Assembly (NCBI RefSeq): GCF_000238335.3
Contig: NZ_AHCB03000005.1
Span: 682,001 to 746,000 of the forward strand
Reading direction: 5' to 3'
Source of the DNA: Pseudoalteromonas marina
GTDB lineage: Bacteria; Pseudomonadota; Gammaproteobacteria; Enterobacterales; Alteromonadaceae
Length of the DNA: 64,000 nucleotides
Part shown: piece by piece, positions 32,494 through 49,312 of the stretch
Position numbering within the stretch: the stretch's first letter is position 1
Layout: each line of letters starts with the position of its first letter
The notes under the pieces: generated by a model
Database searches by the model: none
The model's input: only the letters and a program-made list of their open reading frames with translations
Told to the model about the DNA's origin: nothing
Position numbers and translations under genes: made by a program

Positions 32494-32529
32494 TTGATTA
32501 GTTTACTTTTATGTAAATATAAATTTACG
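32494..32529 (+). promoter_or_regulatory. tyrA promoter with overlapping TyrR box
   Basis: TGTAAATATAAATTTACG at 32512-32529 matches the TyrR consensus TGTAAA-N6-TTTACA at 11 of 12 fixed positions. A candidate promoter overlaps it: TTGATT at 32494-32499, an 18-base spacer, then TATAAA at 32518-32523 inside the box. TyrR binding would cover the -10 element, which fits repression by tyrosine. The box ends 30 bases upstream of the tyrA start codon. Confidence 0.75.
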
Positions 32530-32559
32530 AAATTTGATTTTTTCAAGGTGGGATTGGAC

Positions 32560-33693
32560 GTGGCAAATATAAGTGATTTGGCCCAACTAAGACAAGGTAT
32601 AGATGAATGCGATGCGCAGCTTGTTGCCTTATTAGCTAAACGCAATGGTATTACCCAAAAAATTGGTGAAATCAAACAGCAAACAGGTGCGCCTTTACAT
32701 GCACCAGAGCGTGAAGCTGAATTACTAGCTGCTAGGCGCCAAGAAGCGATTAATCAAAATGTAAGTCCCGATCTAGTGGAAGATATTCTCAGGCGGATGA
32801 TGCGTGAAGCATATCAAAACCAACAGGCTAAGTTAGCGTGTGCAGCGCCATCACTTTCACCTATTGTTATTGTGGGCGGTCAAGGGGCGATGGGGCAGTT
32901 ATTTGCCCAACAATTTATGCGCTCAGGTTATGACGTCAAAATATTAGATAAAGAGCAGCAAGATGATGCCCAAAGCATTTTAACCGGTGCAAAACTGGTC
33001 ATGATCAGTGTACCTATTAATGCCTTAGAGTCTGTAGTTGCTAAACTACCAAAACTAGATGATGACTGTTTGCTCGTAGATATTACATCAGTAAAGCAAT
33101 CGCCAATTAAAGCATTAAAAGCAGCTCATAGTGGTCCAGTTGTTGGTTTACACCCTATGTTTGGGCCTGATATTTCACATTGGGTAAAACAAACGGTAGT
33201 TGTATGTGAGGGCAGAGAGCATAAGGCGGCAAAAGGGCTATTAGAGCAGTTACAAGTGTGGGGGTGTCAGCTTGTAGAGCTAGATGCTAAAAAACACGAT
33301 GAAGCCATGCAAATAATTCAGGTAATGCGACATTTAACAACGTTTGTTTATGGGCAGTTTTTAGCAAAGCAAAGCCATACTTTAGCAGAGTTACGAAGTT
33401 GCTCGTCGCCGATATATCAATTAGAGCTAATGATGGTAGGGCGTTTGTTTGCGCAATCACCTGAGCTTTATTCCGATATAATGTTGGCTCAGTTTGATGA
33501 CGTTGAAAGTTTGTTAGCTCAATACCAAGATACCTTTGCACAAACGCTTGAAAAGCTTAGGGTAGGTGATAAAGCAGCCTTAATGGAGGCATTTGCAGAT
33601 GCTAAATCATATTTTTCAGACTCAACTGCGCATTTTTTAACACAAAGCCGCAGTTTACTTAATAAAGCGAATGACGCTAAGGTGCTCGACTAG
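32560..33693 (+). CDS. tyrA: Chorismate mutase / prephenate dehydrogenase (T-protein)
   Basis: This fused enzyme converts chorismate to prephenate and on to 4-hydroxyphenylpyruvate for tyrosine. An AroQ chorismate mutase domain spans about residues 1-90 (LRQGIDECDAQLVALLAKRN). The NAD-binding dehydrogenase domain has IVGGQGAMGQLFAQQF and GLHPMFGPD. I place the start at GTG 32560 with AAGGTGGG about seven bases upstream, giving 377 residues, close to E. coli TyrA (373). The reading frame is open further upstream, but that part covers the promoter. It is convergent with pheA. Confidence 0.96.
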   Translation: MANISDLAQLRQGIDECDAQLVALLAKRNGITQKIGEIKQQTGAPLHAPEREAELLAARRQEAINQNVSPDLVEDILRRMMREAYQNQQAKLACAAPSLSPIVIVGGQGAMGQLFAQQFMRSGYDVKILDKEQQDDAQSILTGAKLVMISVPINALESVVAKLPKLDDDCLLVDITSVKQSPIKALKAAHSGPVVGLHPMFGPDISHWVKQTVVVCEGREHKAAKGLLEQLQVWGCQLVELDAKKHDEAMQIIQVMRHLTTFVYGQFLAKQSHTLAELRSCSSPIYQLELMMVGRLFAQSPELYSDIMLAQFDDVESLLAQYQDTFAQTLEKLRVGDKAALMEAFADAKSYFSDSTAHFLTQSRSLLNKANDAKVLD

Positions 33694-33754: not shown

Positions 33755-34912
33755 TTAAGTATTCACACTAACAGCTTGTAATGTTTCACTTTGGTAGCAA
33801 CCTAATATGCGCACATATTGGGTATGTTCTTTAAGTTCCTCTAGCGCTTCTTTTACTTGGGTATCAGCCAAGTTTGCTTCTAAATCAACATAAAACACTT
33901 CTTCCCATGGGTTGCCAGGGGTAGGGCGTGATTCCAGTTTTACCAAGTTTATTTTGTGTTGCTTGAAAATCATCAGTGCATCAGCAAGTGAGCCGGCTTG
34001 TTGTTTGGTCGACATGATCAAGCTGGTCTTCGTAGGTATTTGATTCGACACATGCAAAGGCTTACGCGCTACGACTATAAAGCGGCTGTGGTTTTCGCTT
34101 TGATTAGCTAAGTTTGATTTAATAACTTCAAGGCCTACATTTTTACCAGCTTGAGCGGAGCCAATTGCAGCACTATTTGGTGTGCTGAGCGCAGATTGAA
34201 GTGCTGAAGATGTTGAGTCACATGTTTCATGTTGCAAATCCCCTAACCCTTGTAAAAAGCGGCTACATTGTGCGAAGGGTTGTGGATGAGCAAATACTTT
34301 TGTGAGCTGTTCAAGTTGTGTATCAGGTTTAGCTAATAAGCAATGCTCAACACTGTGTGTCACTTCACCAACAATAGATACTTGTGCGTGTTGTAGTAAA
34401 TCAAATACTTCGTTAATACTGCCTGAGCTGGTATTTTCAATAGGAAGTAATCCAAAGTCTGCTTGCCCGCTTTCTACCTTGGAGGTGATTTCTTCAAACG
34501 ATGAACATCCAATTTCAACGAGTTTGCCGGGGCGACGGCTAAAGTACTTATGGCAAGCAAGTTGGCTATATGAGCCTTGCCCACCTAAATAAGTAACACG
34601 GTGTGTTTCGCTTAATGCATCAGGGTTTAGGTTTTTTTGCAGCATTGCTTGCTGGTGTAATACGGAGTCTTCTAGGATTGTTTGAAAAACATTGTTTACA
34701 TAATACGCATCTAAGCCAAGTGACTTGCCATAACCAATTAATTTTTCTAGTAGTGCTAGTTCACGGGCTTCATCACGAATAGGCTTGTTATTTGCAATTT
34801 TATATTCAACAACACCATGACTAATACGGCGCCGTTTAGCTAAGAGTACGAGTAAGTCAGAGTCTATTTCATTTATATCATGTCTTAATGTGTTTAATAC
34901 ATCGTTGGTCAT
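33755..34912 (-). CDS. pheA: Chorismate mutase / prephenate dehydratase (P-protein)
   Basis: This fused enzyme leads to phenylpyruvate for phenylalanine. An AroQ chorismate mutase domain covers about residues 1-95 (LRHDINEIDSDLLVLLAKRR). The dehydratase domain (about 105-285) has YLGGQGSYSQLACHKYF, LLPIENTSSGSINEV and ENHSRFIVV. A C-terminal ACT domain with the ESRPTPGNPWEEVFYVD regulatory motif indicates feedback by phenylalanine. I chose ATG 34912, with GAGGAA about eight bases upstream, giving 385 residues (E. coli 386). ATG 34939 is an alternative. A Phe-rich leader and attenuator precede it. Confidence 0.96.
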   Translation of the reverse strand: MTNDVLNTLRHDINEIDSDLLVLLAKRRRISHGVVEYKIANNKPIRDEARELALLEKLIGYGKSLGLDAYYVNNVFQTILEDSVLHQQAMLQKNLNPDALSETHRVTYLGGQGSYSQLACHKYFSRRPGKLVEIGCSSFEEITSKVESGQADFGLLPIENTSSGSINEVFDLLQHAQVSIVGEVTHSVEHCLLAKPDTQLEQLTKVFAHPQPFAQCSRFLQGLGDLQHETCDSTSSALQSALSTPNSAAIGSAQAGKNVGLEVIKSNLANQSENHSRFIVVARKPLHVSNQIPTKTSLIMSTKQQAGSLADALMIFKQHKINLVKLESRPTPGNPWEEVFYVDLEANLADTQVKEALEELKEHTQYVRILGCYQSETLQAVSVNT

Positions 34913-34960
34913 TTTGGGGTTCCTCATTCCAAAAGTCATCTGCGTAAATGCAGCATATAC

Positions 34961-35042
34961 AAAAAAGCCTCCCGGTTGGGAGGCTTTACTATTCGATTGA
35001 TTTATCTCACAAACAGGCCAGCCTCTTTTATATAAAGAAGCT
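34961..35042 (-). promoter_or_regulatory. pheA transcription attenuator
   Basis: Three alternative pairings are visible on the minus strand. Segment 1 (35042-35034, AGCTTCTTT, inside the leader Phe codons) pairs with segment 2 (35028-35020, AAAGAGGCT). GAGGCT of segment 2 pairs perfectly with AGCCTC of segment 3 (34987-34978, AAAGCCTCCC). Segment 3 makes a perfect ten-base terminator stem with segment 4 (34973-34964, GGGAGGCTTT) around AACC, followed by a U-tract. This is the classical 1:2, 2:3, 3:4 design. A ribosome stalled at Phe codons would free segment 2 to form the antiterminator. Confidence 0.88.
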
Positions 35043-35081
35043 AAAAAAAGAAAAAATAATGCGAGAATAAAATATGTTCAT
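35028..35081 (-). CDS. pheL: pheA leader peptide PheL
   Basis: A 17-codon ORF encodes MNIFYSRIIFSFFSFFI, with six Phe among 17 residues, including two FF pairs. It ends 8 bases before the GAGGCT antiterminator segment's far edge and about 40 bases before the terminator stem. E. coli PheL is likewise a short Phe-rich peptide. Phe-tRNA shortage would stall ribosomes in the last codons. No strong Shine-Dalgarno is visible. A possible promoter is TTGAAA (35160-35155) with TATCTT (35136-35131). TTGACA at 35116-35111 would start transcription too close to the ATG. Confidence 0.85.
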   Translation of the reverse strand: MNIFYSRIIFSFFSFFI

Positions 35082-35271
35082 GCAGTTAATGTATGGAGAG
35101 TTAGGGGTAATGTCAATAACATACTTTACTAAGATAGTGCTTAAGTATTGATTATTTCAACTTTTGTAATTTTTTTATAAAGTTTACAAAAAATTTATAA
35201 TAATGAATTTGAATCTGGTATATTTCATTAACAGCTAAATAATAACAACTATTAATAATTAAGGTTGGCTT

Positions 35272-38200
35272 GTGCTATATAGACGCCCTCCATCGCGTTT
35301 TGGAATAAACTCTTTAAGTGTGAAATTGTCGTTACTCATATCCTCAATTTGTTTAATTGCGGGTGTTTGTGCTGCCTTTTTTATGCTTAAATCTGAGGAA
35401 AAGCAGCTGGTTTTTGAAGAGCACGAAGTACTAAAAAGCTCGACCGATTTATTAGTAAGGCAATTTAAAGAACGAATAGAAACAAAAGTTAATATTGCCA
35501 AGCAGGCTAACAACATAGTTAATGAGCAGTTATTTCAAAAAAACTCCCCAATTGATCTAACCAGTAAAGCGCAACTACAGTTTAATAGTGATGGCACTAT
35601 TCGAAGCGCTTCATCGGATGGTTTATCTGCCGCGTTTTTACCACAAGAAAAGTTCACACCTTTTTACAAACAGTTATTTAATAACTCTGAAGCACTATGG
35701 GATGTTATTTCACCAACATTGGTTTATGACTTCTACAATTTTTACCTTATAACCAATGATGACTTTATCAGAATATCGCCACCTAATTGGGCGTTAAATG
35801 CTCCTGCTGATTTTCGAGTAAGCGGTGGTTCAACTTATAAGTATGTTCGCGAAAGTTTAGGCAACTCTGTAGAACCTGAATGGTCAAAGGTTTACTACGA
35901 TAGAGTATGGCATGATTGGGTGATCAGTTTACTGGTCCCTATTTATTCGAATAATGAATTTATAGGGGTTACAGGCAGTGATATTACGCTTAATAAACTC
36001 GTGTCTTTTCTACCTATAGGAGACAAAGAAAAAAACTTACTTGTTTTTGATAGTAAAGGCCAATTATTAGCCCACCCAGATTTGAGTACTTCATTACTTG
36101 CTGAATACGGAAAAAATAATAAAAAAGTGGCTATGGACGAGTTTGTAAACCCTCAGCTCAAGTCAATTATTAGTGAGGCAATTGCGACAAAGCTTCCAGA
36201 ATATGCAAGTTCTTTTTTACAAAATGACGAGGCTCACTTAATCAATATTCAAAAAATTGATCAGCTAGATTGGTACATAGGGGTTTATAAAAAGCGTTCT
36301 TCTACATTGTCTGCTCTGCAAGATTTGAAACTTAAGTTTTTTGGTCTTTTTATTCTTTACGCTATTTTAGTTGCCTTGTTATTGCATCAAGCCTTGCAGC
36401 ATCTTGTGTTACGCCGATTGCATTCACTTGTTTATGCGGTATCGAGCTTTGGTCAGGGTAAACTAGATACTCAATTTCCAGAAGAGAATAAAGACGAAAT
36501 TGGTACGCTTAACGGTTCGTTTAAAGATATGTCGGTTGAAATTCGTAAATTAATTGATGGACTTAACCAGCGAATAACTGAAAAAGAAATAGCCGAAAAA
36601 GCAGCTAATCGATTATCAAAAGCAGTCGCTTTCTCTGGCACAGGTGTTGTTATAACTGACGAGAACTTTGTTATCGAATACGTTAACCCCAAAATGTTAG
36701 AGATGACAGGTTATCCAGAAAGTCATTTCACTCGAGCGCCACTTTTAAATATTATTGCGTCTGATATGGCTATTTTGGTCGAAGATATTGATATAGACCT
36801 ACGTAGTCGTAACTATTGGCGCGGTGATACGTTAATTGAAAGCAAAGATAAACAGCCTATTTGGGTTTCATTGAGCGTTTCACCGATACGAGAGGAAGGC
36901 GGTAATATCACAAGTTATGTTGCTTCCGCACAAGATATCTCGTTTGTTAAAGAAAGCCAGCGCAAAATGGAACAGCTCGCTTATTTTGACACGCTAACAG
37001 GTTTAGCAAACAGAACCTTCTTCAGAATGCAGTTGCGCAAATCTCTTGCGCTTGCAGAACGTGGTCATTATGCCTTTTCACTTTTTTACTTTGATTTAGA
37101 TGAATTTAAGCGAATTAATGACACCCTTGGACATGACGCAGGCGATCAATTATTAATACAGGTCGCGAATAGACTTAAGAAGCGCCTAAGATCGGAAGAT
37201 ACAATTGCACGTTTAGGTGGCGATGAGTTTGCAGTATTACTCAGTGGAATTGAAAGCCAAGAACACGCAACCGATGTGGCAAATACAATCCAACAAACGC
37301 TTAATATGCCTATTATGCTAGGAAATAACGAGGTAATTATAAGCGCGAGTATTGGTATTACTATGGCGCCATATGACAGCCTCGAAGAAGATCAGCTTCT
37401 GAAACACGCGGATTTAGCAATGTATGAGGCCAAAGAGAAAGGGCGTAATACGTTCCACTTTTATAGCCAAGAGTTAAATGCAGCCGCAAATGAGCGCTTA
37501 TTTATAGAAAACGAACTGCGTATTGCGTTAAAAGAAGAGCAATTTGTGGTTTATTATCAGCCGCAGATAGATAGTCGTACTCAAAAGGTTGTAGGATACG
37601 AGTCATTATTGAGATGGTTCCACCCAACAGAAGGTCTAATACCGCCAGATAAGTTTATTCCTGTAGCTGAGGCGACAGGGCTTATTGTTGAATTAGGTGA
37701 GTGGGTATTACAGGAGTCATGTAATTTCGTTGTGAGATTGACAGAGCAAAACCGTGAAAATAACGTATCGATTAACTTATCTGCTCGCCAATTTAAAGAT
37801 TCGAATCTTGTGCCGACCCTAAGTAAGATGATTATTACATCGGGCGTATCGGCTAAACGATTACATTTAGAGTTAACTGAAAGCATGTTGATGGGGAACG
37901 TAGAGGCTGCTATTGCTCAACTTCATGAGCTAAAAGCACTAGGTATTTCTATTTCAATCGATGATTTTGGAACAGGGTATTCTTCGCTTAGTTATTTAAA
38001 ACGTTTTCCGGTAGATATACTCAAAATAGATCGTTCATTTGTGCAAGATATCCCAGAAGATAGCAATGATATGGAGATTACAGCCGCTATTATAGCAATG
38101 GCTCAAAAGCTTAATTTAGATGTGGTTGCTGAAGGGGTAGAAACCATAGAGCAAGTTGAGTTTTTACAAAACAACAACTGTTTTATAGTGCAAGGGTACT

Positions 38201-38283
38201 ATTACAGCCGCCCAATTCCTGAGTCTGATTTACCAGACTTATATTTAAAGCTGGGTGAAGTACCATTTAAAAAAGTAATGTAG
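35272..38283 (+). CDS. Cache-HAMP-PAS-GGDEF-EAL cyclic-di-GMP protein
   Basis: This is a membrane-bound cyclic-di-GMP enzyme of 1003 residues. A TM helix near residues 14-34 is followed by a large periplasmic dCache-like domain (about 40-340; DWYIGVYKK near its end). A second TM lies at about 350-370, with HAMP (about 370-425) and PAS (about 450-560). GGDEF (about 570-730) has an intact RLGGDEF and an RxxD I-site (RSED) five residues before GGDEF. EAL (about 750-990) has ESLLRW in place of EALLRW, with DDFGTGYSSL, LKIDRSF and AEGVET intact. The start is GTG 35272. Both activities look possible, and the net output is unknown. Confidence 0.92.
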   Translation: MLYRRPPSRFGINSLSVKLSLLISSICLIAGVCAAFFMLKSEEKQLVFEEHEVLKSSTDLLVRQFKERIETKVNIAKQANNIVNEQLFQKNSPIDLTSKAQLQFNSDGTIRSASSDGLSAAFLPQEKFTPFYKQLFNNSEALWDVISPTLVYDFYNFYLITNDDFIRISPPNWALNAPADFRVSGGSTYKYVRESLGNSVEPEWSKVYYDRVWHDWVISLLVPIYSNNEFIGVTGSDITLNKLVSFLPIGDKEKNLLVFDSKGQLLAHPDLSTSLLAEYGKNNKKVAMDEFVNPQLKSIISEAIATKLPEYASSFLQNDEAHLINIQKIDQLDWYIGVYKKRSSTLSALQDLKLKFFGLFILYAILVALLLHQALQHLVLRRLHSLVYAVSSFGQGKLDTQFPEENKDEIGTLNGSFKDMSVEIRKLIDGLNQRITEKEIAEKAANRLSKAVAFSGTGVVITDENFVIEYVNPKMLEMTGYPESHFTRAPLLNIIASDMAILVEDIDIDLRSRNYWRGDTLIESKDKQPIWVSLSVSPIREEGGNITSYVASAQDISFVKESQRKMEQLAYFDTLTGLANRTFFRMQLRKSLALAERGHYAFSLFYFDLDEFKRINDTLGHDAGDQLLIQVANRLKKRLRSEDTIARLGGDEFAVLLSGIESQEHATDVANTIQQTLNMPIMLGNNEVIISASIGITMAPYDSLEEDQLLKHADLAMYEAKEKGRNTFHFYSQELNAAANERLFIENELRIALKEEQFVVYYQPQIDSRTQKVVGYESLLRWFHPTEGLIPPDKFIPVAEATGLIVELGEWVLQESCNFVVRLTEQNRENNVSINLSARQFKDSNLVPTLSKMIITSGVSAKRLHLELTESMLMGNVEAAIAQLHELKALGISISIDDFGTGYSSLSYLKRFPVDILKIDRSFVQDIPEDSNDMEITAAIIAMAQKLNLDVVAEGVETIEQVEFLQNNNCFIVQGYYYSRPIPESDLPDLYLKLGEVPFKKVM

Positions 38284-48955: not shown

Positions 48956-49312
48956 GGGGCTGATTAGGATTCGACGGAATTCAAGAAGCCCAAGGTGCAT
49001 GTCGAGGTGCGGTTTGCCTCGTAAAAAAGCCGCAATCTAAAGTAATCGCAAACGACGATAACTACTCTCTAGCAGCTTAGGCTGGCTAGCGCTCCTTCCA
49101 TGTATTCTTGTGGACTGGATTCTGGAGTGTCACCCTAACACCTGATCGCGATGGAAACCCTGGCCGGGGTTGAAGCGTTAAAACTAAGCGGCCTCGCCTT
49201 TACTTACCGTGTTTGTCCGGGATTTAAAGGTTAATTAAATGACAATACTAAACATGTAGTACCGACGGTCGAGGCTTTTCGGACGGGGGTTCAAATCCCC
49301 CCAGCTCCACCA
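48956..49312 (+). ncRNA. ssrA: tmRNA (ssrA)
   Basis: This is a 357-base transfer-messenger RNA that rescues stalled ribosomes with SmpB. The 5' end GGGGCTGATTAGGATTCGAC and the 3' end with T-arm GGTTCAAATCC and terminal CCA pair as the tRNA-like domain. The tag ORF starts at GCA 49048 and ends at TAG 49078-49080, encoding (A)ANDDNYSLAA, close to E. coli ANDENYALAA. Pseudoknot-type GC-rich segments follow. CCA is genome-encoded. A strong terminator follows at 49351. Confidence 0.97.

Follow-up and report, generated by a model that had tools for sequence, protein, structure and literature searches.

Attenuation relies on tight timing between RNA polymerase and the ribosome. In Escherichia coli, pheA is preceded by the annotated leader gene pheL, and the system combines a short Phe-rich leader peptide, a stop codon near segment 2, the choice between 2:3 and 3:4 pairing, an outer helix around the inner hairpin, a GAGGC/GCCUC core and a bifunctional pheA gene with a convergent tyrA. 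All these properties recur at the pheA locus described here, which lies in the window, a stretch of 64,000 nucleotides from Pseudoalteromonas marina. The 5′ region of pheA from Shewanella has been listed as a predicted amino-acid attenuator, matched there to Trp_leader RF00513 (PMC2659441), and the trpL attenuator RNA of Sinorhizobium meliloti is described as beginning with the ATG of its leader peptide (PMC7298713). What we describe is, at its core, a pheA attenuator of the ordinary, known type; the probable leaderless start of its leader peptide is the only point that goes beyond this type.

The pheA leader and predicted attenuator in the window

The pheA gene (minus strand, 33755..34912) encodes a bifunctional chorismate mutase/prephenate dehydratase. 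Its start at 34912 was picked by a GAGG ribosome site (34925-34922) and by comparison with relatives; the ORF list contains an earlier ATG at 34939. PheA showed its best match to PRK10622 (467.9 bits, under the cut-off of 577 for this model) and exceeded the cut-off of CM_P_1, and its closest named relatives are from Pseudoalteromonas (98% and 97%). At one of the compared loci (L015, the pheA of genome G025) an in-frame TAA lies within the pheA match. The tyrA ORF (plus strand, 32494-33693) is convergent with pheA. Its listed TTG start precedes the family match by 26 residues, thus the true start is probably internal. Beyond the leader, a 1003-residue protein with GGDEF- and EAL-like sequences, recognized by eye, is encoded at 35272-38283 on the plus strand; the gene is transcribed away from the pheA leader and has a promoter-like site ahead of it at 35174-35201.

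Upstream of pheA, an ORF of 17 residues with six Phe, MNIFYSRIIFSFFSFFI, extends on the minus strand over 35028..35081 and ends with the stop codon TAA at 35030-35028. Segment 1 (UUAGCUUCUUU, 35034..35044) overlaps leader codons 13-16. It forms an 11-pair stem (35044-35034 with 35028-35018) with segment 2 (AAAGAGGCUGG, 35018..35028), whose first base is the last base of the leader stop codon. The 2:3 pairing joins GAGGCU (35025-35020) to AGCCUC (34985-34980) in segment 3 (AAAGCCUCCC, 34978..34987). Together with segment 4 (GGGAGGCUUU and the T-run, 34961..34973), segment 3 forms a predicted intrinsic terminator, a perfect 10-pair stem (34987-34978 with 34973-34964) followed by a T-run to 34961, 48 nt upstream of the pheA start. 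In silico the 2:3 antiterminator and the 3:4 terminator are mutually exclusive, with −17.7 kcal/mol for the antiterminator fragment and −17.6 kcal/mol for the terminator hairpin. A further helix, CUGUUUG/CGAAUAG (34989..35016), separates segments 2 and 3 within the antiterminator form. In the full-length fold of the window, 1:2 is surrounded by an outer helix of 11 pairs, with its 5′ strand in leader codons 4-8 (35060..35071) and its 3′ strand at 35001..35011; both strands were assigned from the folds and from lineage swaps. The outer helix and the CUGUUUG/CGAAUAG helix are alternatives because they have bases in common.

The fold of the attenuator region has a z-score of −3.72, and none of 200 shuffles was as stable. 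The reading frame and the three pairings, including the ten-base terminator stem with its T-run, had been proposed by the first-pass annotation and were all recovered on re-reading. The outer helix and the promoter spacing described below were absent from it.

The Rfam family RF01859 (Phe_leader) matched 35082-34958 over the full model length (1-125) with 52.2 bits and an E value of 3.4e-8 in 301 bases, 2.8 bits under the gathering cut-off of 55 bits. A default Rfam scan misses the leader because of this cut-off and lists only tmRNA for the window, where a tmRNA gene with the tag ANDDNYSLAA is located at 48956-49312 on the plus strand. The traits of the family are present, namely a Phe-rich leader ORF upstream of pheA and an outer helix, formed by leader codons and the stretch before the terminator, around the inner hairpin; several pairs of this outer helix are marked as non-standard in the alignment. 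RF01859 exceeded its cut-off in 15 of 60 genomes, among them six of the same genus with the match at pheA (G020, G007, G008, G002, G032, G031), and at an E value of 1e-6 a match was present in 99 of the 247 genomes searched from the order. Several genomes of family f18 (e.g. G201, G223, G243) carry two matches each, and the second match of G233 (L156) has no adjoining PheA match.

Conservation of the reading frame and of the helices

A total of 105 Pseudoalteromonas loci were compared. L109, with 29 nt upstream, was excluded, and the remaining 104 loci gave 79 distinct regions; L120-L124 are not from Pseudoalteromonas. In each of the 79 regions the leader contains 5-9 Phe, and a terminator-like hairpin (−13.0 to −20.7 kcal/mol) is present. 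In fragment folds, scored by a rule of four out of five bases, 2:3 and 3:4 were formed in 79/79 regions and 1:2 in 71/79, the eight regions without 1:2 being early-branching lineages. Clades A and B were separated partly by their −10 box. In the PheA tree clade B forms one group (0.951), as does clade A together with L111 (0.944), a locus initially assigned to clade C.

The ATG lies 36, 39 or 42 nt from the AGCUUCUU core, always a multiple of 3, in all 69 regions of clades A and B. Among the 32 clade A leaders of 17 residues the Phe codons 10, 12, 13, 15 and 16 are invariant and the residue is constant throughout codons 10-16, while codons 2-9 vary. Within codons 2-9 of clade A, letters other than the modal one numbered 60, 64 and 84 at the first, second and third codon position, respectively, i.e. 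no strong excess at the third position. Coding and pairing are inseparable at codons 13-16, because these codons also form segment 1.

The intergenic region of 359 nt is AT-rich (29% G+C), and the Phe fraction of its best short ATG ORF was matched by 8 of 1000 dinucleotide shuffles. To this extent the locus could be a plain premature terminator, in which a U-rich stretch resembles a Phe ORF by chance and the ribosome exerts no control. However, a leader length that shifts in threes only, five invariant Phe codons, the 2:3 pairing in every genus region and the match to RF01859 speak against such a coincidence and make it most improbable. The frame and the Phe codons, whose conservation the first-pass annotation had put forward as a check, are conserved.

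Compensatory changes, put forward in the same place, gave a divided answer. The 2:3 and 3:4 stems are almost invariant in the genus. Across clades A and B, represented by 55 distinct rows, no double changes occur in 1:2, 2:3 or 3:4, so that for these helices the test is silent within the genus; 91.1%, 100% and 95.4% of the cells, respectively, are paired, and the two outermost pairs of 1:2 fail often. In the same rows, 98.4% of the cells of the CUGUUUG/CGAAUAG helix are paired, and this helix contains one double-change pair. The outer helix varies on both strands between lineages yet remains paired. A large part of clade A has UCUCGC opposite G(C/U)GAGA, while parts of clade B have UUACGCGC opposite GCGCGUAA, or ACACGCAA opposite UUGCGUGU. 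Mean duplex energies with the own partner strands were −10.71 (A), −12.95 (B) and −14.27 (C), compared to −10.01, −11.28 and −8.36 with partners from other members of the clade and −7.26, −6.51 and −7.21 when the leader part was shuffled. Exchanging partners between clades A and B gave a mean of −7.94 vs. −11.70 for own partners. It is therefore for the outer helix, by lineage swaps, that the check turned out positive. A loss of the outer helix of the Rfam model at this locus was considered and rejected, as the helix is present in the full-length fold of the window and has at least 5 pairs in that of 76/79 genus regions.

In other genera of the same family a terminator hairpin follows 17 of 18 leaders. 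Matching segments occur there in a different sequence (e.g. L219). For the best segment 2 the score was 8.2 vs. 5.0 for shuffles, with 3 of 17 loci (L231, L237, L243) no better than chance; for 16 chosen loci of the order it scored 9.3 vs. 5.7, with one (L165) no better than chance.

Predicted leaderless start of the leader peptide

The best promoter-like site on the pheA strand is TTGACA-N17-TACATT, with the −35 box at 35111..35116 and the −10 box at 35088..35093 (minus strand; 10/12 for both boxes together). The −10 box ends 6 nt upstream of the leader ATG. With the usual spacing between −10 box and +1, a gap of 6 nt places +1 on the A of AUG, and the transcript is therefore predicted to start at 35081.

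This spacing is widespread in the genus. The gap between −10 box and ATG is 6-7 nt in 48/79 regions (43 and 2 as scored, and 3 after the start had been shifted to the homologous ATG; for L021, L083 and L086 the gap had first been measured from an earlier in-frame ATG), and in these 48 regions the −35 box is TTGACA or TTGACT. A fixed rule for leaderless spacing selected 42 genus regions, compared to a mean of 0.585 and a maximum of 4 in 200 mononucleotide shuffles. The bases between −10 box and ATG vary and contain no conserved ribosome site. The other 31/79 regions (clade B) are not of the leaderless type; in these the gap is 14-51 nt and the promoter scores are weak.

The strict pattern TTGACW-N16-18-TANNTT-N6-7-ATG occurs once in the whole genome, at the pheA leader, and the reversed pattern nine times. 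At least one match was obtained in 36 of 37 genomes (own and relatives), with the pheA leader recurrent among the matches. A second recurrent site of this kind, ending in GCGCCGATG, was seen in four relatives (G008:C2:559177, G010:C9:486659, G021:C2:447049, G022:C2:506925); it may be another leaderless start or may lie within a gene.

Beyond the genus, 28 of 55 other-genus genomes of the same family with a PheA match were examined; 10 of these 28 regions had no leader by the rule used, and 13 of the 18 leaders are of the leaderless type. For the order, loci were picked from among the RF01859 matches listed at an E value of 1e-6, and 15 of 90 were excluded as lacking a PheA match. Leaderless-type spacing was found in families f6 (15/15), f9 (12/12), f7 (3/3 tested) and f20 (1/1), and not in f18 (0/13), f21 (0/16) or f25 (0/13), in a comparison that accepted any in-frame ATG and is thus biased towards the leaderless class. 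For f7, 3 of the 5 listed RF01859 matches were included; an additional f7 genome (G041) had no leader by the rule. The ORF was badly picked by the script at L244, L245 and L130, which were scored as not leaderless-type.

The same attenuator could have an ordinary spacer, with transcription starting further upstream, e.g. from the second promoter-like site on this strand (TTGAAA-N18-TATCTT, 35160-35131, 9/12), and with the leader translated from a normal initiation site, albeit one with a poor SD sequence. A spacer of this kind does exist in clade B and in leaders of the E. coli type. Nevertheless, a TTGACA/T box and a TANNTT-like box located 6-7 nt from the ATG recur across families while the intervening bases are variable, and in clade A the scan picked the TTGAC/TACATT site everywhere except in L051, for which the script used an in-frame ATG further upstream. 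We therefore regard an upstream start as unlikely. In the PheA tree the spaced clade B is nested, with leaderless-type lineages, some of them relatives from beyond the genus, branching off before it. Together these data make it likely that pheA attenuators in Pseudoalteromonas and in several other families of the order use a leaderless leader peptide. The tree suggests that the leaderless state is ancestral in the genus, with one replacement by a spaced start in the luteoviolacea/rubra/piscicida group.

If the first transcribed base is indeed the A of AUG, the ribosome that operates the switch would have to load directly at the bare 5′ terminus, and attenuation in these bacteria would run with 5′-end ribosome loading. 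Related families would then differ at exactly the step of leader initiation and would lend themselves naturally to comparing leaderless with Shine-Dalgarno initiation within a single regulatory device. Among the entries listed by literature searches, none described a leaderless pheL. A primary transcriptome of Alteromonas describes 10 leaderless transcripts, and pheA is absent from the main text of that study (PMC5864184).

Ribosome positions and comparison with known attenuators

Ribosome positions were modelled with footprints whose leading edge lay 10, 12 or 14 nt downstream of the first base of the A-site codon; the RNA beyond this edge, as far as segment 3, was folded. For the window, stalling at codons 12-15 led to 2:3 at all three footprints and stalling at codons 1-9 to 1:2, with the outcome at codons 10, 11 and 16 depending on the footprint; a ribosome at codon 17 or at the stop codon left neither 1:2 nor 2:3. 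Antitermination in this model is thus limited to stalls within the FSFFSFF block. Across the genus, 2:3 formed in 79/79 regions when the ribosome stalled at either the fourth-last or the second-last Phe. With a stall at the last Phe it formed in 78, 46 or 13 regions, depending on the footprint, and at the stop codon never.

Without a ribosome, the fold up to segment 3 prefers 2:3 over 1:2 in 55/79 genus regions but not in the window, and with a stall at codon 2 the model prefers 2:3 in 64-67/79 regions, again not in the window. In these relatives, default termination would therefore need 1:2 to be formed first.

A ribosome-mediated pheA attenuator of the Phe_leader/pheL type, probably with a leaderless start, is strongly favored by these results. 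Attenuation of the pheL design had been suggested by the first-pass annotation and is supported by the near-threshold RF01859 match, the conserved frame and Phe codons and stall positions as in E. coli. The frame, the pairings, their conservation and the promoter spacing can be read from the sequence itself; the transcript start, translation, termination and the response to Phe are the predicted parts of the following scheme. Transcription would begin at the leader AUG, give or take about one base, and the leaderless end would be loaded with a ribosome. With ample Phe-tRNA, this ribosome would reach the stop codon and cover segment 2, so that 3:4 would end transcription near 34961. When Phe-tRNA is scarce, the ribosome would stall in the FSFFSFF block, covering segment 1 and leaving segment 2 free; segment 2 would then pair as 2:3 and RNA polymerase would continue into pheA. 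If no ribosome loads or if it stalls earlier, the outer helix and 1:2 would sequester segment 2, and transcription would end.

The Shewanella prediction resembles this locus in placing an attenuator in the 5′ region of pheA and differs, as far as described, in its match to Trp_leader RF00513. As a precedent for a leaderless attenuator RNA, trpL of S. meliloti is to be named, although it responds to Trp instead of Phe, belongs to the alphaproteobacteria and is described from experiments, whereas the start in the window is predicted. E. coli pheL differs from the window in the distance from a −10-like TACTGT (assigned by eye) to the ATG, which is about 25 nt in E. coli and 6 nt here, and in having AAGGAAAC before the ATG, where the window has no AAGGAAAC-like site. 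The same stall logic applied to E. coli pheL gave 2:3 at codons 6-14, which are its Phe block, and neither pairing at the stop codon.
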